NCBI GenBank assembly: GCA_000350305.1
Contig: CP002916.1
Coordinates: forward strand, 1,054,001 to 1,118,000
Reading direction: 5' to 3'
From: Thermoplasmatales archaeon BRNA1
GTDB lineage: Archaea; Thermoplasmatota; Thermoplasmata; Methanomassiliicoccales; Methanomethylophilaceae
Length of the DNA stretch: 64,000 bases
Of the stretch, positions 37,959 to 55,427 are shown one piece after another (the first letter of the stretch is position 1; every line of letters begins with the position of its first letter). The position numbers and the translations under genes are program-made. The notes under the pieces were generated by a model. The model saw nothing but the letters and a program-made list of their open reading frames with translations, was not told where the DNA came from and did no database searches.

Positions 37959-38851
37959 ATCCTCAGCACCTTCTCGATTGCTTTCACATTGGTCCTGCCG
38001 GTCTCCTCCAGGAACACGTCCTCGAGGTGGGTCCCGCGGAGGATGCCGTTGCTGGTCTCCACGGTCTCGTAGAATGCCTTGGCCTCCGCACGGTCGGAGA
38101 AGAAGCGGTACGACCTGGTGCCGCTCTCGCCGTCGTATTCCACGCAGTATGCGCCGAGGCTGTCGCACATCTCCCTGGGGGTGCCGACATGCTCGATCTT
38201 TCCATGGCTGATGATAGCCACACGGTCGCAGAGGGTCTCGGCCTCGTCCATGTAGTGGGTGGTGATGAAGACCGTGGTTCCGCGTTTGTTCAGCAGACGG
38301 ATGACGTCCCAGAGCATATGGCGCGACTGGGTGTCCAGTCCCGCGGTGGGCTCGTCCAGGAAGAGGATCTTCGGCTCATGCATGAGGGCACACACGATAG
38401 CGGTCTTCCTCTTCCATCCGCCGGAGAGGTCGCGGGCGGTCTTATCTAGATAATCGGTGAGACCGATGGCATCGCAGAGATCCTTCATCCTCTCCTTGAT
38501 AAGGGGCTTCGGGACCTTGTGGAGCGTCGCCCTGCTGATGATGTTCTCCCTCACGGAGATATCCATGTCGAGGGCGATATGCTGCTGCACGACACCGATG
38601 AGCGATCTGACGGAAAGGGGGTTTTCGGAGGCGAGATTGCCTCCGATGGAAATTGTGCCAGCAGTCGGTTTCCTCATCGTAGTGAGGACCTTGACCGTGG
38701 TCGTCTTGCCTGCTCCGTTGGGACCGAGGAAACCGAAAATCTCCCCGTCGCCCACGTGGACCTCGATGTCGTCCACTGCCGTGAAATCGCCGAAGCGGAC
38801 GGTGATGTGCTCCGCATCGATGATGTTCCCAGGCATGGATCCCACGCTCAT
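37955..38851 (-). CDS. ABC-2 type transporter ATPase (exporter 1)
   Basis: The protein has 298 aa from ATG 38851 (MSVGSMPGNIIDAEHITVRF). It has Walker A GPNGAGKTT, Q-loop VVQQHIALD, signature DLSGGWKRKTAIV, Walker B ILFLDEPTAGLD and TTHYMDEAE, followed by a DrrA-type C-terminal domain. The LSGGWKR signature is shared with its paralogue at 42739. It is coupled to the upstream cbiC gene by an ATGA overlap and to the permease downstream, so transcription ties this transporter to corrin synthesis. Confidence 0.92.
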   Translation of the reverse strand: MSVGSMPGNIIDAEHITVRFGDFTAVDDIEVHVGDGEIFGFLGPNGAGKTTTVKVLTTMRKPTAGTISIGGNLASENPLSVRSLIGVVQQHIALDMDISVRENIISRATLHKVPKPLIKERMKDLCDAIGLTDYLDKTARDLSGGWKRKTAIVCALMHEPKILFLDEPTAGLDTQSRHMLWDVIRLLNKRGTTVFITTHYMDEAETLCDRVAIISHGKIEHVGTPREMCDSLGAYCVEYDGESGTRSYRFFSDRAEAKAFYETVETSNGILRGTHLEDVFLEETGRTNVKAIEKVLRI

Positions 38852-39486
38852 CTGCCCATGGTGTAGAGCATTGCGTTGATGATGGTGGCGCCGATGTTGC
38901 TGCCTCCCTTGCGTCCCTTGGCGACGATGTAGGGGATGCCGAACTCCTCGGCGGTCTTGATGATGAGCTCCTTGGACTCCACGACGTTGACGAATCCGAC
39001 GGGGACGCCGACTATCATCGCGGGCTTGTACTTGCCCTCGCGGACCAGCTTGTCGATCTCGATGAGAGCGGTGGGGGCGTTTCCGCAGACGTAGATGGTG
39101 GGCTTCGCGTGCTTGGAAGCCTTTTCGACGGCGACGGTGGAACGGGTGCATCCCCTGGCCTTGGCCTCATCGACCACATCGGGATCGCTTACGAAGCAGA
39201 ATGCCTCCCCGCCGTGCTTGGCAAGGGCGTTCTTGTTGATGCCTGCCATCGCCATCTTGGTATCCGTAATCACGTCCGCTCCGTTCTTCAGAAGCTCGAC
39301 TCCCCTGTTGGCGGCATCCAGGCCGAAAACGAGGTTGTCTGCATAGTCGAAGTCCGCAGAGGTGTGGATGCACCTCTTCACGATGGAGAACTCGGGCTCC
39401 GGCCAGGTACGGCCGTTGAGTTCCTTCACGATGGTGGCCATGCTGTGCGTTTCAATGTCGCGCGGGTCTGTAATCTCGAATACCAT
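38848..39486 (-). CDS. cbiC: Cobalt-precorrin-8 methylmutase
   Basis: The protein has 212 aa. It contains the family catalytic segment VKRCIHTSADFDYADNLVFG with its conserved His (residue ~41), then GADVITDTKMAMAGINK and KPAMIVGVPVGFVNVVESKE. CbiC moves the C11 methyl to C12, making cobyrinate. The stop overlaps the ATPase gene downstream (ATGA) and the start lies 19 bases after cbiH. Together with cbiL, cbiF and cbiH it covers the methylation and rearrangement part of the anaerobic corrin route; cbiD, cbiE, cbiT, cbiG and cbiJ are not in this window. Confidence 0.94.
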   Translation of the reverse strand: MVFEITDPRDIETHSMATIVKELNGRTWPEPEFSIVKRCIHTSADFDYADNLVFGLDAANRGVELLKNGADVITDTKMAMAGINKNALAKHGGEAFCFVSDPDVVDEAKARGCTRSTVAVEKASKHAKPTIYVCGNAPTALIEIDKLVREGKYKPAMIVGVPVGFVNVVESKELIIKTAEEFGIPYIVAKGRKGGSNIGATIINAMLYTMGR

Positions 39487-39505
39487 ATTCTCACAACCTA
39501 TATCC

Positions 39506-40258
39506 TTACTGTTTTTCGCTCCCCTTCACGGGATATCCGCGGGGAGTGATCATAAGCCCGTTCTTGGCGTATGACTGTGAATTGCCGATCACCACGGTGC
39601 AGAACATGTCCACATCGGCCTCCTTGAGCTTGCCGAGGGTGGTGATGGTGGAGCCCTGGTCCTTCCTGCCTGCCTGCCTGACGATTCCGACGGGGGTGTC
39701 GGGGGAACGGCATTTCAGGAGGATGTCCGCTGCCTGTGCCAGATACTCTGTCCTTCCCTTGCTCTTGGGGTTGTAGAGGGCGATGACGAAATCACCCTCT
39801 CCCGCGAGCTCGACCCTCTTCATGATCTTCTCGATGGGGGTCATGAGGTCGGAAAGGGATATGAGCGCCACATCGTGCATGAGGGGCGCTCCGAGGATGG
39901 CTGCGCTGCTGGACGCGGCGGTGACACCGGCCACGGAGGTGATCTCTATGTCGGCTCCCATCTCATCGGCGAGCTGGTAGATGAGTCCGGTCATCCCGTA
40001 GATTCCGGAGTCCCCGGAGGAGACCATCGCGACGTTCTTGCCGGACAGCGCATCCTCGATGGCCATGCGGCAGCGGTCGACCTCCTTCATCATTCCGGTG
40101 GCCTTGTACTCCTTCTCGGGGAAGAACTCCTTGAGGATCTTGATGTATGTGGTGTATCCGGTGACGATGTCCGCCCCCTTGATCGCCTCGACGGCGCGGA
40201 CGGTCATGTCCTCGTAGCTTCCGGGTCCGAAACCCACAACGGTAAGTTTTCCGGCCAT
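39506..40258 (-). CDS. cbiH: Cobalt-factor III C17-methyltransferase (ring contraction)
   Basis: The protein has 250 aa. It is a SAM-dependent tetrapyrrole methyltransferase with VVGFGPGSYEDMT at the N-terminus, SSGDSGIYGMTGLIYQ (residue ~80) and VAGVTAASSSAAILGAPLMH, then ALYNPKSKGR, the set that marks CbiH/CobJ. It methylates C17 and contracts the ring. No CbiG-like extension is present. It is the only cbi gene here ending in TAA. The start lies one base after the cbiF stop. Confidence 0.94.
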   Translation of the reverse strand: MAGKLTVVGFGPGSYEDMTVRAVEAIKGADIVTGYTTYIKILKEFFPEKEYKATGMMKEVDRCRMAIEDALSGKNVAMVSSGDSGIYGMTGLIYQLADEMGADIEITSVAGVTAASSSAAILGAPLMHDVALISLSDLMTPIEKIMKRVELAGEGDFVIALYNPKSKGRTEYLAQAADILLKCRSPDTPVGIVRQAGRKDQGSTITTLGKLKEADVDMFCTVVIGNSQSYAKNGLMITPRGYPVKGSEKQ

Positions 40259-40259
40259 C

Positions 40260-41021
40260 TCAGTCCGTCCCCTTGCGGTATCCGGTGGTGAAATGGCTGT
40301 CGTAGAGCTTGGAGAGCTCGAACTTGTCGCCGAGGAATCCGCCGACCATGGTCATTGCGGTCTTCTCGATGTTGTTCTCCTTGACCAGCTTGGCCATGGT
40401 CTCCACGGTGCCGTAGATGATCTTCTGTTCCGGCCAGGATGCCTTGTAGACGACCGCCATGGGGGTGTCTGGCTCATATCCGGCCTCCAGGAGGGTCTTG
40501 GTGAGCTCGTCCATGAATCCGACGGAGAGGAAGATGCACATCGAGGAGTGGTGCTTCGCCAAATCGATGAGCTTCTCCTTCTCGGGCATGGGGGTCCTTC
40601 CCTCCATACGGGTGATGATGACCGTCTGGGAAACGGAAGGTAGGGTGAACTCCTTCTTGACGGCGGCGGCCGAGGCGCAGAACGAGGATACCCCGGGGGT
40701 GACGTCGTACTCGATGCCCTCGGCGTCGAGCCTGACCATCTGCTCGCGGATGGCCCCGTAGATGGAGGGGTCTCCGGTGTGGACGCGGACGACCTTCTTG
40801 CCCGCCTTGGCGGCGGGGATGGTGACGTCCATTACCTCGTCCAGGTTCATGTATGCACTGTCGTAGACGACGGCATCCTTCTTCCTTCCTTCCAGGACGG
40901 CGGGGTTCACGAGGGAACCTGCGAAGATGATGATGTCCGCCTGGTCGATGAGTTTCTTTCCTTTGATGGTGATGAGTTCGGGATCTCCGGGTCCGGCTCC
41001 GACGAAGTGTACCATTTCCAT
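40260..41021 (-). CDS. cbiF: Cobalt-precorrin-4 C11-methyltransferase
   Basis: The protein has 253 aa. Motifs VHFVGAGPGDPELITIKGKK at the start, IIFAGSLVNPAVLE, RVHTGDPSIYGAIREQM and TPGVSSFCASAAAVKKEFTL identify the CbiF/CobM clade of SAM methyltransferases. It adds the C11 methyl. ATG 41021 is used; an ATG six bases later and a TTG six bases earlier are possible. It follows cbiL within two bases of its stop. Confidence 0.94.
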   Translation of the reverse strand: MEMVHFVGAGPGDPELITIKGKKLIDQADIIIFAGSLVNPAVLEGRKKDAVVYDSAYMNLDEVMDVTIPAAKAGKKVVRVHTGDPSIYGAIREQMVRLDAEGIEYDVTPGVSSFCASAAAVKKEFTLPSVSQTVIITRMEGRTPMPEKEKLIDLAKHHSSMCIFLSVGFMDELTKTLLEAGYEPDTPMAVVYKASWPEQKIIYGTVETMAKLVKENNIEKTAMTMVGGFLGDKFELSKLYDSHFTTGYRKGTD

Positions 41022-41023
41022 TT

Positions 41024-41725
41024 TCAAACCTTCTTCTTGATCAGAACGGTCGTGAAGTACCCGTACTCTCTTGACGGGTCCAGCGGACCGATGTATTCGT
41101 CATCCATTCCGACATTGCTCATCACGGTGGCGTTGGAGAGGGGTATGTCCCTCTGGTTGAGCATATCAACAATCTCGCCGATGGAGGCGAACGCCTTCAT
41201 GACGACGACGTTGTCGATGCAGTCGAGGGCCTTCTCGACCTTGGCACGGTTGTGCTTGGCCATGGAGAGGACGGCGAGGCTCTCCTCCCCGATCATGAGG
41301 GGCAGGCGTGCGAGGGCGGCGCCGTGACAGAACGACGGGATGCCGGGGACCACTTCGGTCTCGTAACCCCTGTCCCTGACGTCCCTGTCGATGTACATGT
41401 AGGTACTGTATACCGCGACGTCCCCGAGGGTTACCATGGCGATGTTCTTTCCCTCGTCGAGGAGGCTGCAGACCTTCTCGAGCGCCTTCGCGCGGCACTT
41501 CTTGCGGACCTCGTCGTCTGGGTCCATCTTGAACAGAAGTTCGACGACTTCCTTTCCGGAGACGTCGACCTTCTTCTTGATGATCTCGAGGGCGGTTCCG
41601 TCCTCCCCGAGCTTCCTTACCGGGTATGCGATGACCTGGGAATCCTCGAGTAGCTCCTTTGCCCTGATGGTCATCAGGTCCGGATTCCCGGGACCTACTC
41701 CGATTCCGTATAGTTTGCCTTTCAT
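41024..41725 (-). CDS. cbiL: Cobalt-factor II C20-methyltransferase
   Basis: The protein has 233 aa from ATG 41725 (MKGKLYGIGVGPGNPDLMTI). Motifs VTLGDVAVYSTYMYIDRDV and VVPGIPSFCHGAALARLPLM are characteristic of CbiL/CobI, which methylates C20 of the early corrin intermediate. In the anaerobic path the substrate already carries cobalt. It lies next to the importer-type ATPase gene, with a few bases between stop and start; a TTG overlapping the upstream stop is an alternative start. Confidence 0.94.
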   Translation of the reverse strand: MKGKLYGIGVGPGNPDLMTIRAKELLEDSQVIAYPVRKLGEDGTALEIIKKKVDVSGKEVVELLFKMDPDDEVRKKCRAKALEKVCSLLDEGKNIAMVTLGDVAVYSTYMYIDRDVRDRGYETEVVPGIPSFCHGAALARLPLMIGEESLAVLSMAKHNRAKVEKALDCIDNVVVMKAFASIGEIVDMLNQRDIPLSNATVMSNVGMDDEYIGPLDPSREYGYFTTVLIKKKV

Positions 41726-41730
41726 TGCGT

Positions 41731-42600
41731 TCAAGCCTCTGTCTGCTCAGCGCCCTGTTCGGTATCGGTGACTTCGGCCTTGTTGTTGAGAGCTGCAAGC
41801 ATCTTCGGGGACCTGACCTCGGTCTCGTCCATCGGGAGGGCATCCTTGAGGATGACGTGAGGGGCCCCGTCGTCATCGACGATGGCGGACTCCACGCCGT
41901 ACACCACCCTAAGGTTCTCCTCATTGATAACCTCTTTAGGCGTACCGACGGCGAAGATGGTCCCCTGGTGCATCATTATGACCTCGTCGGAATACTTCGC
42001 CGCGATGTTGATGTCGTGGCTGATCATGATGATCAGAATCTGCTTCTCGACGGAGAGCCTCTTGAGCATCTTGGTGACGTCCAGCTGGTGCCTGACGTCG
42101 AGGTTGGAGGTAGGTTCGTCGAGCAGGAGGATCTTGGGCTCCTGGACGAGACCCCTGGCGAGCATGACCTTCTGGTGCTGCCCCGCGGAGAGCTCGTTGA
42201 AGGCCCTCATGGCGAGGTGGGAGATGCCCAGCATCTTCAGTGTGTCATAGACGATGTCGAGGTCGTTGTCGAGGGATTTCCACTTGCTGTGGGGGTGCCT
42301 TCCCATAAGGACGGTATCGACAACGGTGAGGGGGAACGTGTCGTTCGCAGAGTATGGAACGTAACCGACCTGCTTCGCCATCTCCTTGATGGTGATCTCT
42401 TTGACGTCCTTCCCGTCGATGAACACGTTTCCCTCGGTTGGGGAGAGGATCTTGTTGATGCAGTGGATGAGGGTGGACTTACCGACGCCGTTCGGTCCCA
42501 GGATCGAGACGAAACGGGGGCCTTCAAGGTTCAGCGTGATGTCGTTCAGGACGGGCACGCTTGAGTAAGAAAACGCAACATCGTCAATCTTCAGTTCCAT
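41731..42600 (-). CDS. Importer-type ABC ATPase heading the cbi operon (BtuD/FecE-like)
   Basis: The protein has 289 aa from ATG 42600 (MELKIDDVAFSYSSVPVLND). It has Walker A GPNGVGKST, signature LSAGQHQKVMLARG, Walker B ILLLDEPTSNLD and IIMISHDIN. A C-terminal extension VYGVESAIVDDDGAPHVILK matches the system B ATPase. No permease or binding protein is adjacent. The system A importer lacks an ATPase and carries the same operator, so this protein may energise it. It is the first gene of a seven-gene operon: ATPase-cbiL-cbiF-cbiH-cbiC-exporter ATPase-exporter permease. Confidence 0.9.
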   Translation of the reverse strand: MELKIDDVAFSYSSVPVLNDITLNLEGPRFVSILGPNGVGKSTLIHCINKILSPTEGNVFIDGKDVKEITIKEMAKQVGYVPYSANDTFPLTVVDTVLMGRHPHSKWKSLDNDLDIVYDTLKMLGISHLAMRAFNELSAGQHQKVMLARGLVQEPKILLLDEPTSNLDVRHQLDVTKMLKRLSVEKQILIIMISHDINIAAKYSDEVIMMHQGTIFAVGTPKEVINEENLRVVYGVESAIVDDDGAPHVILKDALPMDETEVRSPKMLAALNNKAEVTDTEQGAEQTEA

Positions 42601-44648: not shown

Positions 44649-47600
44649 TCACCTGTCGGTGATCTCCTCGATCCTCTCCTCGAAGTCGAGGTACACCTGC
44701 TTGAGCTTCTCCAGCATCTCATCGGATGCGTCCCAGAATCCCCTGTCCACGGCCTCCTGCAGGCGTGCGAGCATAGCCATCATCGCATAGGGGTTCTCGT
44801 CCTTGATCCATTCCTGGGTCTCCTTGTCCAAGACGAAACGGTTCGCCAGGTCGTCGTACATCCAGTTCTCGATGATGTCCTCGGTGGCGGACCATCCCAT
44901 GGTGTAATCGAAGAGCTTGGACAGCTCCTTGGCGCCGGCGAAGCCGTGCTGCTTCAGGCCGTTCAGCCACTTGGGGTTGTCGATCTTGCTCCTGAAGATG
45001 AACCTGCACTCCTCCTCGGTGGTCCTCAGTTTGAGGTTCTGGGTGTCCGAGGAGTCCCCCATGAACGACACGGGCTTCTGTCCCTTCTCCGCGGTGACCG
45101 CCGCGGTGAACCCTCCGAGACAGTCGAAATCGTCGTCCATGTCGAGCATGTCCACCGCCCTGGTGTTGTGGTTCTTGACGGTGACGTCCATGATCTTCAG
45201 TCTCTTGCGGAACATCTCCGGCTTTGCCTCTCCCTTGAGACCTTTGCCGTACACGTAGCAGCCGTGCTTGACGTAGGTGTCCCTGAGATCGTCCACGGAC
45301 TTCCAGTTCCCGGTCTGAACCAGGTCACTGATTCCGCATCCGTACTGCCCGGGGGCATCTCCGAAGATACGGTAGCTGGCTTCCCTCTGGGCCTCGTCCA
45401 CCGGGACGCCCTGTGCGATGGCCTCCACGGTGTCCCTCCTGATGTTCGCCGCGAGGTAGTTCTGGTCGTCATCCTCGTCGAGGGCGGCGATCATCTAGAC
45501 TCCCCTGTCGATCAGGTTGGAGAGGTTGGGGAAGGTGTCCCTGAACAGCCCGCTGATCCTGACTGTAACGTCTATCCTGGGCCTGCCTAGTTCCTCGATG
45601 GGGATGACCTCCACATCCTTCACGCGTCCGCCGTAGCCGTCCCAGACGGGACGGAGCCCCATGAGCCGGAGGATGTAGGCAACGTCGTCGCCCCCGGTCT
45701 TCATGGTGTCTGTCGCCCAGAGGATTATTCCGATGGTCTGCGGGCAGACCCCGTTGTCCTGGATGTATCTCTCCACCATCTGCTCTGCCATCTTGGAACC
45801 GATCTCCCAGCTGGAATGCCAGGGGATGCTGTCCGGATCGATGGAATAGAAGTTCCTTCCCGTGGGGAGAATCTGTGCGCGTCCCCTGCCGGGACATCCG
45901 GAGGGTCCGGGCGGAACGAATCCGCCGCCTAGGGCCTTGAGGACGTTTCCGATCTCGTCGCCCATGTGCCTCACGGCATCGATGAGGAATCCGCAGACGA
46001 ACTCTATCGCCTGCTTCATGTCCTCCCCCGCATTCGGATACCTCCCGACTGCGAAACCTATTGCCTCGGAAGCATCGAAATCATACTCCTGGCACTTCTC
46101 GATTAACTCATACATTCCGGCATCGATGATGTCCGTCATCTCCCCGTTCAGGTGGCCGTCGGGCTGAACGCCGGACGGGTCCTTCAGGAGATCCTCCATC
46201 TCCAGGCCGTACGTGTGGGCGACGGCCTCCCTGAGGGACGGGACGTCCCCGTTCCTGTATCTGACCAGCATGTAGAGGGTCTCGGCCATCCTCTCCCCCT
46301 CGGGGATCTGACCTAGGATGTGGAGACCGTCCTTGATCAGGGCGTCCTTCACCTCTAGGATGTAATCGTATAGCTTGTCGATCTTGGAATCCATCTCCTC
46401 CGCGGTGGCATCAGCTGAGAGATTCAGGTCGGACATCATGTTGAGCTTGACGCAGAGGCTGATGACCTTCTCCATGATGAGCGGGAGCTTGTCGGTCTGC
46501 TTCTGCTCCTTGGCCTTGAGGAACGACTGGACCGCAGACTCCAGTTCGTTGATCTCGTCATACCCTCCGGACCTGGCCATGGCCGGGATCAGATGGGTGG
46601 TGGTTACCGCATACTGGCGGCGCTTTGACTGCATCCCCTCTCCGGGGTTGTCTATGATGTACGGGTTGATGTTCGGCAGTTTGGAAAGGACGATGTCGGG
46701 GTCGCACTCATCGGAGAGACCCGCGCTCTTGCCTGGAAGCCACTCCAGGGTCCCGTGGGTCCCGATGTGGACCACGGCGTCCGCTCCCCAGACATACTTC
46801 AGCCATCTGTAGAACCCGAGGTACTGGTGCGGCGGTGCGGTCCACGGGTCGTGGACGGACTCGGTGGTGCACTTGCCGCGGTCGGGCTGGAAACCGATAA
46901 ACACGTTGCCGTTCATGATTCCCGGCAGGAGGATCTTCCCGTCCAGGACGTGGATGTCCCCGGGGGTGTCGCCCCAGGCCTCTACGAACCTCTTCCTCGC
47001 GGATTCGGCTATCTCGTCGAACCATGCGTCGTACTGCTCCTTGGTGACCATGTCGACGGCGGCCTCGCGCATCTGCGCCTCGGACCTCCAGTTGTCGTCG
47101 TTGGTGATGCCCTCGAGCATCCTGTTGACCAGGTCCTTCCCGTCCTCGGGGACCCAGTCGAGAGCGTAACCCGCATCCTTCATCCTCTCGAGCATAGAGG
47201 TCACGCTGGCGAAGGTGTCCAGGCCGTATCCCCCTCCCGCCAGGTCCTGCCTCGGCGGGTACATGTAGATGAGGATCGCGACCTTCTTCTCGCTCTGCTT
47301 CCTGTGGGTTAGGGTTCCCCATCTGACGGCCATCTCCGCAAGCGCGGAGCACCTCTCCTCGATGGGGACCTGCTTGTAGTCTCCGTTCTCCATCTTCTCG
47401 GTGCCGCAGTACGGGACTCCGTCGATCTGTCCGTCGAACTCGGGATCGACGACGCTCATGGCGATGTCGGCGGGACCGAGTCCGAAGGGACTCTCCCTCC
47501 AGGCCTTCGCCGGACCGTAGAGGTTGATCGCCTGTATGACCGGAACGTTGAGCCTCTCGTAGAAGTTGTCCTCTGAGACCTGCTCGCCGCACCCGGGGGA

Positions 47601-48392
47601 TGCGATGAGGGTGGATGAGAACCCGATGGTGTTGATGACGGCATCCACGATGGGCTTCCCGTCCCTCAGGAGATATCTGTCGACTATGGCGCTGACCCCG
47701 ATGGAGCCCACGACCTCGTCGGCGTAGGTCTTGTAGAATATGGCCAAGGGTTCACCCCCCGCCCTCTCGACCGCGTGATACAGCTCGTCCATGGCGCGGG
47801 TGTTGTGCCTGATGTAGAACGTGTAGACGAATGTGATGAGTACGACCGGACGGCCGGTGGAACCGACGTCTTTCAGACCCTCCTCGAATGTGAATGCGCC
47901 CCTCCCGGGAACGTAGACTCCCTGGGCCATCGGCCTCACCGGGTCGGGGACCTTGAGACCCGCGTTGTCGAACATGTTGAGGAGTTTCTTCACGACGGAG
48001 AAGTTGTTCTCGTCTCCACCTATCTCGGAGAGGATGGTCAGGGTGCGGAAGCATTCGTCGTCCTGTCTGAACATGTACCTCCAGTCGGCGATAATCTCCG
48101 GGTCGCATCCGGTCATGAATGCGGAGATCCCGTAGGTGTCGATTACCTCCCTCAGGTTCCCCCAGTGGCGGAAGTAGGAGACATCCCCGTGGACGTACAG
48201 GAATATGATGTCGCATCCCTTCACGACGTCGAGGAACCTCTTGAGCTCGTCGATGTCATCGTCAAGGGTGACGGAATCCGCACCGTGGAATTCGATATCG
48301 TAACCCTGACTGCGCATGATGCTAATCGGACCCTCCAGAACGAAACCCTCGTGGGATCCGACACCGAAACCTGCGATTCTGACCATTTCCAT
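44649..48392 (-). CDS. cobN: CobN-like chelatase large subunit with in-frame amber codon (predicted pyrrolysine)
   Basis: Read through the TAG at 45495-45497, this is one frame of 1247 aa. Landmarks: VHIGTHGTLEWLPGKSAGLS, PNINPYIIDNPGEGMQSKRR, GGGFVPPGPSGCPGRGRAQI and WATDTMKTGGDDVAYILRLM. These mark the CobN/ChlH superfamily that inserts metal into tetrapyrroles with an AAA+ partner. The amber codon is residue 966 and aligns with Lys970 of the 1251-aa paralogue at 48458, with colinear similarity on both sides (GLFRDTFPNL before, then LDE and LAAN after). The alternative is two proteins of 965 and 281 aa, since an ATG follows the TAG directly. The first ATG is used; ATG 48386 has better spacing from AGGAG. 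Substrate unknown. Confidence 0.85.
45495..45497 (-). other. In-frame TAG codon, predicted pyrrolysine
   Basis: The codon order on the minus strand is GGA GTC TAG ATG ATC, and the frame is unchanged before and after it. All other complete genes read in this window end in TGA or TAA. No obvious hairpin immediately after the codon was identified. Pyrrolysine decoding is known in Methanomassiliicoccales; it is inferred, not shown, for this genome. Confidence 0.7.
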
Positions 48393-48457: not shown

Positions 48458-51400
48458 ATGGACATGAACATCGTCATAATCTCAGTCCAGAGCGCGGACG
48501 CTGCCACCATGGCGGAGCCCGCACAGAAGCTGAGGGAACTGGGGATTGCCCCCAACGTCCTCGCCCTCAACTCGGACGATATCGACGACGATGTTCTGGT
48601 TTATCAGGACGTGGTCAGACACGTCAGGAACGCCGACTTCATCTTCATCAGATGCATGTCGGACACCAACCGCTTCAAGAGGTTCGAGAAGCTGGAGAAG
48701 GTGCTCGAGGAGACGTCCGCATACGTCCTAATCTTCAGCGGGAACGCCGAGGTCACCATGATGACCCGTCACCTGTTCAGGGGCACCGATGATGAGTTCA
48801 GGGACGTCTGCAGGTACTCAGCCGCCAGGGGGTTCGAGAACGAGTACGGCATGATGCACTACATGGCCCGGCTCCTGGGAAAGACCCAGACAACTCCCCC
48901 TGAACCAGTGGAGCAGAGGCGCGACGGCTACTACCACAAAGGGATGGACAGGGATATATCGAGAGAGGATTACCTCAAGACCCTCGACCCCTCGAAGATG
49001 ACCATCGGGATCCTCTTCGCCAGTTCCCTCTGGCTTTACGACAACCTCGCCGCCATCGACGCCCTCACCGATGAGATCGAGAGGAGAGGTATGAACTCCC
49101 TTCCCCTGTTCTACTCCGCCGTCTCCTACAAGACCGACGGCGAGGAGGGCACCAGGGCCACAATCAGGAAGTACTTCACCGACAACGGGAAACCCATCCC
49201 GGACGCGGTGATCATCCACACCTCGTTCTCCGTGATGTACAACTCCCGCCAGGACATGGGTGTGGAGATCCAGGAGAGGGACAATTACTACAGGTCCCTG
49301 CTGAACGTCCCCATGCTGAACACCCTCACCATCACCGGGGAGTACAGCGACTTCGAGAACGACAAGGTCGGCGCGGACAAGCACACCGTGACTAACAACG
49401 TCGCCTTCCCCGAGATCGACGGCGACATCATCACCGTACCCATCGCCTGGACCCCCAGGAAGAGCGGGATGAAGAAGAACGTCCCCATCCCCGACAGGAT
49501 CGAGAGGGTGGTGGACCTTGCCTACAGATGGGCGAAACTGAGGCACATGCCGAATTCCGAAAAGAAGGTGGCGATCCTCCTCTGGCAATCCCGCCCCAAC
49601 TCGGGCGTCATCGGTAACGCAGCAGGCCTGGATTCCGTCGAGAGCATCGCCGGGCTCCTCCGCAGGATGTCCGCCTCCGGATACATTGTGGAGAATGTGC
49701 CAGACAGCGGAAGGGCCCTCGTCGATGAGATCCTCGACGGGGTCACGAACGACCTCGACAACATGTCCGCGGAGGCCATGCGCAAGAAGGCGGCGGACCT
49801 CGTCCCGGCCTCCGATTACATCAAGGAATATTCCAAGGTCCCTCAGTGGGACAGAGAGATGACGGAGAAGGACTGGGGGGACCCTCCGGGGGACATCTGC
49901 GTCGACAGGGACAGGATTATCATCCCCGGCATCGTCAAAGGGAACGTCTTCGTCGGATACCAGCCTCTCCGCGGAAGGGCGGAGAAGATGGAGCAGAACA
50001 TACACGACCCCGTCCTCTTCGCACAGCACCAGTACCTCGAATATTACAGATGGATCAGAGACGTGTTCAAGGCGGACATGGTCATCCACGTGGGGACCCA
50101 CGGTACCATCGAGTGGCTCCCGGGCAAGAACGTCGGGATGTCTCAGAAATGCGACCCGGACGTGGTCCTCGGAGGGCTTCCCAACCTCTACATCTACATC
50201 GTCGACGACCCCGGGGAGGGGATCCAGTGCAAGAGGAGGATCGAGAGCGTCCTCATAGAGCATATGCCCCCTTCGATGGCCAGAGCGGGACAGTACGACG
50301 AGATTGCACAGGTCGAAAGGCCCATCCAGGAATACCTTGAGCATAAGGCCACCAACGATTCCAAGCGCAGGGCGGTCCTTGTGAAAAACATCTACGAGGC
50401 GGCAAAGGAGCACAAGATGCTCAACGACATCGGCCTGGGCGACGATAAGGATCCCGGGCCGGAGGGCTTCGAACCCCACATCGTGGAGCTGCACGAATAT
50501 CTGTCCGAGGTCAAGGACACCCTGGTCAGGGCGGACCTGCACGTCCTGGGAAGGGTCCCTAAGGAGGACCACTACGATGAGATGGTCTACTCCCTCATGA
50601 GGCTGGATAACGGGGACGTGAAGAGCCTCAGGGATGCGTTCGCGGACAGCATGGGGATCGACATCCAGAAAGCCATCGACGACCCGGCCGGAAGACTCCC
50701 CTCGGGAGAACTAAACAGTTCAGCGGTCGATAGGGTCGATGACCTCCTGCAGGAATTCCTGAAATATGCCAGATCCGTGAAGTATGACATCCAGTCCTGC
50801 ATCTCGAAGCTCGAGAACGATCTGGGGAAGGCATCCAAAGACCTCAGGGAATCGGTCTCCTTCATGTGCTCCAGGGTAGTCCCCGGCATCGACGGGATGA
50901 CCGACGAGATCGACAACATCCTCCACGGCATGAACGGAGGGTACGTGCTCCCCGGACCCGCGGGAGCCCCTACCCGCGGGAATGCGCATATCCTCCCGAT
51001 GGGGAGGAACTTCTATTCCCTGGATCCGGACACCGTGCCCAGCAGGGCATCGTGGGAGATCGGGAAGAAGATGGCCGACCAGATGATCGAGAAATACGTC
51101 GCCGAGAAGGGGGAGTTCCCCAGGGAGGTCGGGTTCATCATCTGGGCGACTGACACCATGAAGACCGGCGGGGACGATGTAGCATACATCCTGTGGCTGC
51201 TCGGAGTGAGGCCGGTGTGGTCCATGGCGGGCGGGCAGGTCATCGGACTGGAGGTTGTCCCGAAGGAGGAACTGAAAAGACCCAGAGTGGACGTTTCCGT
51301 CAATATCACAGGTCTGTTCAGGGACACTTTCCCCAACTTGATCGACCTCATCGACGACGCGGTGAAACTGGTCGCCGAACTCGACGAGAGCGACGAGGAC

Positions 51401-52213
51401 AATGCCCTCGCGGCCAACCTCAGGAGGGACATCGTGGAGGGCATCGCCGAGGGTCTCACCCCAGATGAGGCCCGCCAGAGGAACTCCGTCCGCATATTCG
51501 GAGCCCCCTTGGGAGGTTACGGGACGGGAGTCAACTTCGCCATCGAGTCCGGCGCGTGGAAGACCGTGAACGACCTGGCCGATGTATACATCGACTGGTG
51601 CAGCAACGGATATTCCAAGGGCAACTACGGACAGAAGATGAGAGGGGAGTTCATCAGGAGATTCTCCAAGGTGGGTGTCACCGTCAAGAACATGCCGGAC
51701 AGAGAGATAGACCTTCTGGACTGCGACGATGTCTACGAGTACCTCGGGGGCATGAACGCCTTCGTCAGGGCATACGGCAGGAAGGATGCCGTCACCTACA
51801 TGGGGGACGATTCCGACCCCAAGAAGACCAAGGTCCGCAGCACCAAGGACGAACTCAGATTCGCCTTCCGTTCGAAGGTCCTCAATCCCAAGTTCATCAA
51901 CGGGCTGAAGGAACACGGATACCGCGGCGCGGCTGAAATGGCTAACCTCACCGAATATACCATGGCCTGGGGCGCCACCTCGGATGTCGCCGAAGATTGG
52001 ATGTACGAGGGACTCGCCGACAAGTTCCTGTTCGACAAGGACACCCAGGAATGGATGCAGGATGTCAACCCCTATGCGATGATGAACATCCTGAACAGGC
52101 TTCAGGAGGCCATCGAAAGGGGGCTCTGGAACGCGGACGACGAATACCGCGAGGAACTGAAGGACCTCTATATCAAGACCGAGGAGAGGATCGAGGAGAT
52201 CACCGACAGGTGA
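48458..52213 (+). CDS. cobN: CobN-like chelatase large subunit (copy 2)
   Basis: The protein has 1251 aa in one uninterrupted frame. It shares the landmarks of copy 1: IHVGTHGTIEWLPGKNVGMS, DDPGEGIQCKRRIESVLIEH, GGYVLPGPAGAPTRGNAHIL and WATDTMKTGGDDVAYILWLL, then NITGLFRDTFPNLIDLIDDA. The length is typical of CobN/ChlH. The large subunit binds the tetrapyrrole and receives the metal while a ChlI/ChlD-type motor hydrolyses ATP. The ATG at 48458 is close to the TATA and operator and has no clear ribosome binding site, so it is probably leaderless. The two CobN copies diverge from a common promoter region, so they may form alternative or mixed complexes with the ChlI/ChlD pair downstream. Gene name by family only. 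Confidence 0.9.
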   Translation: MDMNIVIISVQSADAATMAEPAQKLRELGIAPNVLALNSDDIDDDVLVYQDVVRHVRNADFIFIRCMSDTNRFKRFEKLEKVLEETSAYVLIFSGNAEVTMMTRHLFRGTDDEFRDVCRYSAARGFENEYGMMHYMARLLGKTQTTPPEPVEQRRDGYYHKGMDRDISREDYLKTLDPSKMTIGILFASSLWLYDNLAAIDALTDEIERRGMNSLPLFYSAVSYKTDGEEGTRATIRKYFTDNGKPIPDAVIIHTSFSVMYNSRQDMGVEIQERDNYYRSLLNVPMLNTLTITGEYSDFENDKVGADKHTVTNNVAFPEIDGDIITVPIAWTPRKSGMKKNVPIPDRIERVVDLAYRWAKLRHMPNSEKKVAILLWQSRPNSGVIGNAAGLDSVESIAGLLRRMSASGYIVENVPDSGRALVDEILDGVTNDLDNMSAEAMRKKAADLVPASDYIKEYSKVPQWDREMTEKDWGDPPGDICVDRDRIIIPGIVKGNVFVGYQPLRGRAEKMEQNIHDPVLFAQHQYLEYYRWIRDVFKADMVIHVGTHGTIEWLPGKNVGMSQKCDPDVVLGGLPNLYIYIVDDPGEGIQCKRRIESVLIEHMPPSMARAGQYDEIAQVERPIQEYLEHKATNDSKRRAVLVKNIYEAAKEHKMLNDIGLGDDKDPGPEGFEPHIVELHEYLSEVKDTLVRADLHVLGRVPKEDHYDEMVYSLMRLDNGDVKSLRDAFADSMGIDIQKAIDDPAGRLPSGELNSSAVDRVDDLLQEFLKYARSVKYDIQSCISKLENDLGKASKDLRESVSFMCSRVVPGIDGMTDEIDNILHGMNGGYVLPGPAGAPTRGNAHILPMGRNFYSLDPDTVPSRASWEIGKKMADQMIEKYVAEKGEFPREVGFIIWATDTMKTGGDDVAYILWLLGVRPVWSMAGGQVIGLEVVPKEELKRPRVDVSVNITGLFRDTFPNLIDLIDDAVKLVAELDESDEDNALAANLRRDIVEGIAEGLTPDEARQRNSVRIFGAPLGGYGTGVNFAIESGAWKTVNDLADVYIDWCSNGYSKGNYGQKMRGEFIRRFSKVGVTVKNMPDREIDLLDCDDVYEYLGGMNAFVRAYGRKDAVTYMGDDSDPKKTKVRSTKDELRFAFRSKVLNPKFINGLKEHGYRGAAEMANLTEYTMAWGATSDVAEDWMYEGLADKFLFDKDTQEWMQDVNPYAMMNILNRLQEAIERGLWNADDEYREELKDLYIKTEERIEEITDR

Positions 52214-52533: not shown

Positions 52534-53565
52534 TTGCAAAAACAGACTGCGTTCTTCCCGTTCACTGAGGTCGTCGGACAGGACGACATGAAAAGGGCCC
52601 TTCTCCTGAACATCATCGACCCCGGAATCGGCGGCGTGCTGATCAAGGGAGAGAAGGGGACTGCGAAATCCACCACCGTGCGTTCGCTCAACTGGATCCT
52701 CCCCTACCGCGAGGCCGTGAAGGGGTGCCCGTTCCGCTGCCAGTTCGGACGCGAGGACAGATACTGCCCCATCTGCTCGGAGAGACTCGCCAAAGGCGAG
52801 AAGCTGGAACCCGAGAAGGTCCGCATGAAGGTCATCGACCTCCCTCTGAGTGCCACCGAGGACCGTGTATCCGGAACTCTCGACCTGGAACACGTCCTCA
52901 AGACCGGGGAGAAGAAGTTCGAACCCGGTGTCCTCGCAGCGGCAAACGGCAACATCCTCTACGTCGACGAGGTCAATCTCCTCGACGACCACCTGGTCGA
53001 TCTCCTTCTCGACTCCGCCGCTATGGGCATCAACTACGTCGAGAGGGAGGGGGTTTCCTTCTCACACCCCGCTAAGTTCGTCCTCGTAGGTACCATGAAC
53101 CCCGAGGAGGGAGACCTCCGCCCCCAGCTCCTGGACAGGTTCGGACTGTCCGTGGACATCAAGGGGGAGAGGGATGTCAAGATGCGCGCCGAGGTCGTCA
53201 AGAAGAGAGTCGCATACGACGCCGACCCCGAGGCCTACATCAAGAAGTGCCAGAAGGACCTGGATGCCATGACCGAGAAGCTGGAGAAGGCCATCGCTCT
53301 GCACCCCAAGGTCATCGCCGGCGACGATGTCGTGGACATGATCGTCTCGGTCATGGTCCACTTCGGTATCGACGGACACCGCGCGGACATCACCCTAATG
53401 AAGGCCGCCAAGGCCAACGCCGCGCTCGAAGGCCGCAACAAAGTCACAAAAGACGATATTCGCCAGACGGCGGAACTCGTGCTCTCACACCGCCTGAAGA
53501 GGAAGCCCTTCGAGGAGAAGGCCCTCGACAGGGAGGAACTCGAGGCATGTCTGGAGAACCTCTGA
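52534..53565 (+). CDS. Mg-chelatase-type AAA+ ATPase, ChlI/BchI-like (copy 2)
   Basis: The protein has 343 aa from a TTG start (MQKQTAFFPFTEVVGQDDMK). It has Walker A GEKGTAKST, Walker B LYVDEVNLLDD and a four-cysteine segment FRCQFGREDRYCPIC at the same place as copy 1. No ATG or GTG occurs in frame before the conserved FPF region, so TTG is the likely start. It overlaps chlD copy 2 by 19 bases. It lies beside the cobN genes and shares their operator, so it is the best candidate motor for the CobN chelatases. Confidence 0.9.
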   Translation: MQKQTAFFPFTEVVGQDDMKRALLLNIIDPGIGGVLIKGEKGTAKSTTVRSLNWILPYREAVKGCPFRCQFGREDRYCPICSERLAKGEKLEPEKVRMKVIDLPLSATEDRVSGTLDLEHVLKTGEKKFEPGVLAAANGNILYVDEVNLLDDHLVDLLLDSAAMGINYVEREGVSFSHPAKFVLVGTMNPEEGDLRPQLLDRFGLSVDIKGERDVKMRAEVVKKRVAYDADPEAYIKKCQKDLDAMTEKLEKAIALHPKVIAGDDVVDMIVSVMVHFGIDGHRADITLMKAAKANAALEGRNKVTKDDIRQTAELVLSHRLKRKPFEEKALDREELEACLENL

Positions 53566-55427
53566 ACTGCCTCCCGTTCACAGCCGTCGTAGGCATGGAC
53601 GACGCGAAGCGCGCACTGGAGTGCGCACTGTCGTCCCCTCACATCAAGACCGTTCTTATCAGGGGCGGCGAAGGCTCTGCCAAGACCACCCTGGCCCGCG
53701 CGGCCGCGGGCGTATCCGGGAGGAAGATCGTCAACTGCCCCTTGAACGTCACCGACGAACAGCTCTTCGGCGGCATGGACATCGAGAGGACCATCCGCGA
53801 GGGCAGACCCGTTTTCGAACCCGGTCTCCTCCAGCGTGCCGACGGCAACATACTCTACATCGACGACGTCAACCTCATGGACCGCGCCATGCTCGCCGGT
53901 ATCCTGGATTCCGTCCTCACCGGCACCGTCACCGTGGAACGCGGTTCCATATCTGCAAAATATCCCGTGGACACCACCCTGGTGGCCACCATGAACCCCA
54001 ACGACAGCGACCTGTCCTCCCACGTCCTGGACAGGTTCGACCTCTGTGCCTATCCATCCCCCGAGGACGACCGCAGGGAGATCCTCCGCAGGAATGCGGA
54101 GTTCAACGCCGATCCGAAGAGGTTCTCGGAACTGTTCTCGGATGATGAGAACAAAGAGTGCCAGAAGATAGAAAGGGCATCGAAGATCATCCCTCTTGTG
54201 ACGGTCTCGGACGAACTTCTCTCCGTCATCTCCGAGCTGTGCATCAAGGTCGGTGCGGACGGTCTCCGCGGAGACCTCGCCATGATCAACTGCGCCAAGG
54301 CCCTTGCCGCCCTGAACGGCAGGGATGAGGTGATGAAGAAGGATATCGAAGAGGCGGCAGTCCTCTGCCTTCCCCACCGCCGCAACTACTCTCAGCCCCC
54401 TCCGGAACCCCCCGAGCCGCCGGAACCCCCGGAACCCGACGACAACGAGCAGGAGCCGCCTGACGACGATCAGCAGCAGGAACCCCCCGAGCCCCCTGAG
54501 CAGGAGGACAAGGACGACGAGGAGGACCAGAACCCCCCAGAGCAGCCTCCTCCCGAGCTTCCAGACCTCGAGGATATGATGTTCGAGATCGGAAGGCAGT
54601 TCAGGGTCATCGATTACCTCGCGGACAGGGAGCGCATCCCCGCACGCACCAAGACCCGCAAGGGGCGCCGCACCATGGCCCAGAGCGCCGACGGCACCGG
54701 AAGATACGCAAGGTCGAGGATTCCCGACGGCAAGACCAGCGACATCGCCTTCGATGCCACCATACGCGCCGCAGCACCCTATCAGAAGGTCAGGCACAGC
54801 GACAAGGTCTCGGTCGTCATCGAGAAGGGCGACATCAGGGAGAAGGTGCGCGAGAGGAGGTGCGGGACCACCCTGCTGTTCCTCGTGGACGCCTCCGGTT
54901 CCCTGGGAGTCAGAAGGAGGATGGCCACCGTCAAGGGGGCGATCCTCTCCATGCTCCGTGACAGCTACGTCAAGAGGGACCGCATCGGACTGATGGCTTT
55001 CCGCAGGGATTCCGCCGATATGATCCTCCCTCCCACCAAATCCGTCGAATACAGCTACAAACAACTGGAGGAACTCCCCACCGGCGGCAAGACCCCGCTC
55101 GGGGAGGCGCTCATGAAAGTGGACGAGTACATGACCGCCTATGCGAGATGCCACGTCGGGGAGAGGTGCTTCATAATCCTCGTCACGGACGGAAGGGCGA
55201 ACGTACCTCTGCAGGCCGGGGCCGATGCCAACGAGGAGGTCCAGAAGATGGCCGAGGACCTGAAGATTCCGTCGGTCAAGTGGATCGTCGTCGATGCCGC
55301 GTCCGGATTCCCACACTTCGACAACGCCGAAAGGCTCGCCGAGAAACTAGGTGCTAGATACTTCAAGCTCGAAGATCTTGATGCCGACCGTTTCGCCGAC
55401 GGCGTGAAGGCTGCCATCGACTCGTGA
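53547..55427 (+). CDS. Mg-chelatase-type AAA+/VWA subunit, ChlD/BchD-like (copy 2)
   Basis: The protein has 626 aa from ATG 53547 (MSGEPLNCLPFTAVVGMDDA). The AAA+ domain shows GGEGSAKTTLARAA and LYIDDVNLMDRAML. An acidic proline-rich linker (PPEPPEPPEPPEPDDNEQEP and similar, residues ~280-345) follows, as in many ChlD proteins, then a VWA domain with MIDAS DASGSL (residue ~450). Unlike copy 1 its Walker A looks complete. It overlaps chlI copy 2 and, with the cobN genes, gives all three chelatase subunit types in one 11-kb block. Confidence 0.9.
   Translation: MSGEPLNCLPFTAVVGMDDAKRALECALSSPHIKTVLIRGGEGSAKTTLARAAAGVSGRKIVNCPLNVTDEQLFGGMDIERTIREGRPVFEPGLLQRADGNILYIDDVNLMDRAMLAGILDSVLTGTVTVERGSISAKYPVDTTLVATMNPNDSDLSSHVLDRFDLCAYPSPEDDRREILRRNAEFNADPKRFSELFSDDENKECQKIERASKIIPLVTVSDELLSVISELCIKVGADGLRGDLAMINCAKALAALNGRDEVMKKDIEEAAVLCLPHRRNYSQPPPEPPEPPEPPEPDDNEQEPPDDDQQQEPPEPPEQEDKDDEEDQNPPEQPPPELPDLEDMMFEIGRQFRVIDYLADRERIPARTKTRKGRRTMAQSADGTGRYARSRIPDGKTSDIAFDATIRAAAPYQKVRHSDKVSVVIEKGDIREKVRERRCGTTLLFLVDASGSLGVRRRMATVKGAILSMLRDSYVKRDRIGLMAFRRDSADMILPPTKSVEYSYKQLEELPTGGKTPLGEALMKVDEYMTAYARCHVGERCFIILVTDGRANVPLQAGADANEEVQKMAEDLKIPSVKWIVVDAASGFPHFDNAERLAEKLGARYFKLEDLDADRFADGVKAAIDS

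Follow-up and report, generated by a model that had tools for sequence, protein, structure and literature searches.

An in-frame TAG in a cobN-like gene of Thermoplasmatales archaeon BRNA1 is probably read as pyrrolysine

A cobN-like gene in the genome of Thermoplasmatales archaeon BRNA1 is interrupted by one TAG. Its product is very probably a whole CobN-type chelatase subunit, made in a gut-type methanogen that decodes UAG genome-wide as pyrrolysine. The TAG is most likely a recent, near-neutral substitution to pyrrolysine, which would be tolerated because the cell decodes UAG in this way throughout its genome. The genome is a single contig (99.7% complete, 1.46 Mb), and the window, i.e. the whole stretch of 64,000 nucleotides that was analyzed, covers its positions 1054001-1118000. 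When TAG is counted as a sense codon, the frame at 44649-48392 of the window (minus strand) has 1247 codons. The TAG at 45495-45497 (minus strand) is its single interruption; translation of the frame revealed no other stops or frameshifts. The parts of the gene are as follows (window positions).

44649..48392, minus strand: cobN-like gene, read through, 1247 residues (translation, TIGR02257, Pfam PF02514, PDB relatives)
45498..48392, minus strand: part before the TAG, 965 codons (open reading frame, orthologue comparison)
45495..45497, minus strand: in-frame TAG, codon 966, predicted pyrrolysine, at a variable column and in a predicted helix
45492..45494, minus strand: ATG beside the TAG, an internal Met shared with stop-free orthologues; GGAG precedes it
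44649..45494, minus strand: part after the TAG, 281 codons plus stop, the C-terminal piece of the CobN domain, with no domain of its own

The first-pass annotation had described a CobN-like frame that continues for 281 codons beyond the TAG. This description holds, since the frame is otherwise intact and the 281 codons obtained a coding score of +182 from a codon-usage gene finder. The read-through protein matches the family of CobN and class I chelatase large subunits over its full length. It scores 884 bits against TIGR02257 (cut-off 822; residues 57-1237) and 1192 bits against Pfam CobN-Mg_chel (PF02514; residues 125-1226), and its relatives in the PDB include CobN (7c6o) and the heme de-chelatase HmuS (9d26). 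Judged from its sequence, the product is by family a CobN/Mg-chelatase large subunit; insertion of cobalt into a corrin ring is only predicted. The chelatase superfamily also includes ChlH and HmuS; its role in archaea is unclear, and no function has been established for class I chelatases in methanogens (PMC12583661). Several CobN copies per genome are frequent in Methanomethylophilaceae. The neighborhood of the gene contains a second CobN, two further chelatase subunits and corrin-ring genes (window positions).

38848..41734, minus strand: cbiC, cbiH, cbiF and cbiL corrin-ring genes near the cobN pair (TIGR01467, TIGR01465 and TIGR01466 over cut-off; precorrin-8X methylmutase matches)
48458..52213, plus strand: uninterrupted, divergently transcribed CobN paralogue, about 41% identity (orthologue search, TIGR profile)
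52534..53565, plus strand: ChlI/BchI-like AAA+ chelatase subunit (TIGR02442 and TIGR02030, both below cut-off; Pfam Mg_chelatase)
53559..55427, plus strand: ChlD/BchD-like AAA+ plus VWA chelatase subunit (profile matches)

The reading of the amber codon as pyrrolysine, which had been proposed from the letters of this stretch, is supported by the pyl genes, by the usage of TAG in a third of the genome and by unsplit orthologues. As is expected of a pyrrolysine-decoding organism, the genome carries pylS, pylB, pylC and pylD, a pylT with a CUA anticodon, and mtmB with an in-frame TAG. Absence of the pyl genes would have told against this reading; the four protein genes were found over their cut-offs and pylT was read directly (genome positions).

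988657-989493, minus strand: pylD, over the curated cut-off
989494-990639, minus strand: pylC, over the curated cut-off
about 990726-991547, minus strand: pylS, 263 bits (cut-off 178)
C1:991573-991643, minus strand: pylT, read directly, just upstream of pylS
442315-443328: pylB, standing alone, over the curated cut-off

The pylD, pylC, pylS and pylT genes lie about 60 kb before the window together with the two mtmB copies of the genome, both with an in-frame TAG; all of them are on the minus strand. The distance of pylB from this pylTSCD cluster is about 0.55 Mb. In pylT an A comes after the anticodon CTA, and CAG forms the variable loop; this compact shape agrees with the published description (PMC3941956). 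ARAGORN misses the gene. Its predicted fold has no anticodon stem, in agreement with the broken stem reported for M. alvus (PMC3941956). PYLIS-like matches occur in both mtmB genes; they are weak and below Rfam's threshold. A recoding RNA element at the cobN TAG was rejected since no PYLIS-like element was found near it in 45300-45700. This speaks somewhat against the pyrrolysine reading, although PYLIS is not needed for UAG decoding according to the literature (PMC4153887).

Usage of TAG was analyzed with the codon-usage gene finder in the window and 20 further stretches of 20 kb each, which together make up 464 kb or 32% of the genome. The 351 sampled genes end in TGA (315), TAA (28) or TAG (8). 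TAG triplets are commoner than TAA in the sampled sequence, yet TAG is rarer at gene ends. The eight genes that seem to end in TAG are the two mtmB, cobN, CarA, a phosphoglycerate mutase, a carbon-nitrogen hydrolase, a thioesterase-family gene and one marginal call without a family match. In seven of these eight the same protein continues beyond the TAG. CarA, the mutase, the hydrolase and the thioesterase-family protein each match their family when read through, and the first two exceed equivalog cut-offs over their full length.

L012:848-1933, minus strand: CarA (carbamoyl-phosphate synthase small subunit), in-frame TAG at codon 143; equivalog match over the full length
L017:6186-6947, plus strand: 2,3-bisphosphoglycerate-dependent phosphoglycerate mutase, in-frame TAG; full-length equivalog match
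L019:5051-5815, plus strand: carbon-nitrogen hydrolase, in-frame TAG; family match
L018:15424-15966, plus strand: thioesterase-family gene, in-frame TAG; family match

The frame stays coding for 40 codons beyond the stop in 5/8 genes with TAG, compared with 12/343 genes with TAA or TGA (Fisher p = 7e-6). On inspection, these twelve continuations resemble adjacent in-frame genes; where a protein in the sample is interrupted midway, the codon is TAG. Within the 32% sample, TAG is thus depleted as a terminator and present inside conserved genes. Because TAG ends are few and the same protein goes on beyond seven of the eight, TAG behaves as a rare sense codon in the sampled genome.

Orthologues of the interrupted gene were sought in 102 Methanomethylophilaceae genomes. 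The closest CobN relatives (61-72% identity) are unsplit and stop-free. The first-pass annotation had raised the case of consistently split orthologues; no CobN match in the 102 genomes searched is split at the point of the cobN TAG. Among the 11 closest orthologues that cover column 966, the codon is CAG in six, CGC in three, AGG in one and ATG in one; in more distant orthologues the residue is Arg, Lys, Gln, Asn, His or Asp. TAG occurs at this column in none of the orthologues and is peculiar to the species of BRNA1. This counts against our preferred explanation, in that conservation of the TAG itself lends it no support. A conserved or functionally selected pyrrolysine site in this orthologue group was rejected since the TAG is not kept and the column is variable.

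It had further been argued that the TAG aligns with a lysine of the paralogue at 48458-52213, and that orthologues should be checked for a kept TAG or lysine codon. The paralogue does have Lys at column 966. The check found neither codon kept; the orthologues have ordinary sense codons, mostly CAG among the closest. The alignment with lysine is coincidental as an argument for pyrrolysine, because Gln (CAG), Arg or Met stands at this column in close orthologues. That lysine is the rule there was also rejected; close relatives usually have Gln or Arg, and Lys is in the minority.

The following course of events would account for these data. Codon 966, for which the nearest relatives mostly have CAG (Gln), likeliest became TAG by a single C-to-T transition, as the aligned codons suggest; the ancestor may also have been an Arg or Met codon. 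The tRNA-Pyl, charged by the short PylS, would then place pyrrolysine at residue 966 and so yield the protein of 1247 residues. Pyrrolysine at this position would be tolerated and would most likely have no special catalytic role. Partial termination at the UAG may in addition yield a fragment of 965 residues.

The main rival to this explanation is a natural split, in which UAG ends the first chain and translation restarts at the adjacent ATG with the help of GGAG, so that two polypeptides form one CobN. Its sole positive evidence is the TAGATG arrangement together with the GGAG motif 5 bases upstream of the ATG, and this context also counts against pyrrolysine. About 5% of internal ATGs have such a motif in front of them, compared with 16% of gene starts, and before the ATG at 45492..45494 it is probably there by chance. 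The Met that follows the TAG is an internal residue in several stop-free orthologues; hence the ATG is not a start that was made for a second gene. Against a split speak also the 102 genomes searched, which have no match divided here, and the sampled genome, where TAG is almost never the end of a gene. The structure model of CobN has a modest mean pLDDT of 67 and was used for the local helix alone. In this model residue 966 is part of a predicted helix, with a local pLDDT of about 93, and falls within one folded domain; its helical position is variable and probably exposed. Such a site would be a poor spot for a natural break. We consider a split quite improbable.

The TAG could also be a recent disabling mutation in a pseudogene, or a miscalled CAG. 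This is consistent with its being unique to the species and one base away from CAG. A contig scan for another record of the same species that could confirm the TAG base returned other species only. The genome, on the other hand, is complete and in a single contig, and the sampled interruptions inside proteins are TAG, with TAA and TGA continuations that look like neighboring genes in frame. Furthermore, selection is not relaxed after the TAG. Identity to eight orthologues from the same family is 57-66% before and 73-84% after the TAG; dN is about 0.3 before and 0.13-0.23 after it, with dS at 0.85 or more throughout. Pairs of stop-free orthologues have the same pattern of dN/dS before and after this point, which indicates that the tail has been selected together with the rest of the protein. 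Purifying selection acts on the sequence beyond the TAG as strongly as it does in stop-free orthologues.

The CobN copies of related genomes also argue against such decay or error. Among the CobN matches listed, nine copies including that of BRNA1 contain 12 in-frame TAGs at scattered positions, one copy has a TAA and none has a TGA. With the near-identical pair G053/G054 collapsed, eight copies with TAG remain and one with another stop; with equal chances for the three stops, p is about 0.001. The genomes with a TAG-bearing CobN each have pylS or pylC, and mtmB with a TAG is present in all four that were checked besides BRNA1 (G016, G042, G059, G061). A pylS-negative reading of G059 and G061 was rejected because both carry pylC, which is in two pieces in G061, as well as mtmB with a TAG; their pylS is probably absent from the assembly only. 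The genome with the TAA-bearing copy (G092:C91:8479-12272, L070) has no mtmB, no pylC over the cut-off and no pylS match, and this copy is probably a pseudogene or an assembly error. Taken together, a disabled or miscalled BRNA1 gene is very unlikely.

In another CobN paralogue a TAG is found at column 175 in two genera, in copies with 69% protein identity (L064 residue 174 in G016, L062 in G054 and L063 in G053); the next relatives have Lys or Glu there. This implies that a TAG in a CobN was tolerated for long or recurred, i.e. was gained twice. The CobN of G053/G054 has a second TAG, at a column with Gly in 41/47 rows.

That UAG is read by a near-cognate Gln or Lys tRNA, for which one may cite that close relatives most often have Gln here, is hardly credible given a dedicated CUA tRNA with its synthetase and a tRNA scan that saw no further CUA tRNA in the window or stretches L001-L004. 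UAG decoding as a switch is a highly improbable scheme, in which the chelatase would end at 965 residues when pyrrolysine is scarce and be made whole when it is plentiful, during growth on methylamines. If this were true, metal insertion into tetrapyrroles would be coupled to methylamine use, since methylamine growth needs corrinoid methyltransferases.

In the methylamine methyltransferases MtmB, MtbB and MttB, UAG encodes pyrrolysine; the residue is catalytic and the TAG conserved. The reading predicted for CobN is the same as in these enzymes, which the BRNA1 genome represents with its two mtmB. In CobN, by contrast, the column varies and nothing points to a catalytic role. Another parallel is the tRNA-His guanylyltransferase of Methanosarcina, which is reported (Heinemann, 2009, as cited in PMC4153887 and PMC8211752) to have gained pyrrolysine through neutral evolution. 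The enzymes differ, but in both a conserved enzyme probably gained its TAG neutrally. A study of 2025 reportedly found that such archaea read every TAG codon as pyrrolysine.

The first-pass annotation had considered a chelatase subunit to be a different kind of host for pyrrolysine. This view has to be given up, since genes with TAG other than methyltransferases are common in the order (PMC4153887, PMC5011839), a TAG-bearing CobN was already proposed in 2005 (PMC1242214), and nine copies in the family bear TAG. In Ca. Methanomethylophilus alvus, TAG makes up 1.6% of stops (2.3% or less in the BRNA1 sample), 16 non-methyltransferase genes contain it, and it was proposed as a sense codon (PMC4153887); in ISO4-H5, 46 genes contain TAG (PMC5011839). 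As in BRNA1, these are unrelated genes with single TAGs and with relatives that have none. Both belong to the same order as BRNA1, and M. alvus likewise has its genes in the order pylTSCD with pylB far away, and a tRNA with a broken anticodon stem (PMC3941956). CobN is absent from the M. alvus table and is not named in the main text on ISO4-H5, whereas BRNA1 has a TAG-bearing CobN. The homologue proposed by Chaudhuri and Yeates is from Methanosarcina acetivorans (PMC1242214); it was doubted, and judged a probable pseudogene, because the gene has an in-frame TAA besides the TAG (PMC1914089). The two genes share their family, an in-frame TAG, a pyrrolysine-decoding archaeal host and variable aligned residues. 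The BRNA1 gene differs in being free of other stops and subject to purifying selection.

The novelty of a TAG-bearing CobN is therefore small. The BRNA1 cobN is an ordinary and probably neutral case of a known code variant, one of several TAG genes in its genome. The general understanding is unchanged, since proteins that use UAG for pyrrolysine, many in number, and TAGs gained neutrally had been described before in the order and in Methanosarcina. For this species, the annotation of cobN is corrected from two fragments to one gene, and a large conserved enzyme near corrin-synthesis genes is added to the proteins that probably depend on pyrrolysine. Together with CarA and phosphoglycerate mutase, it suggests that the core metabolism of the species relies on the pyl genes.
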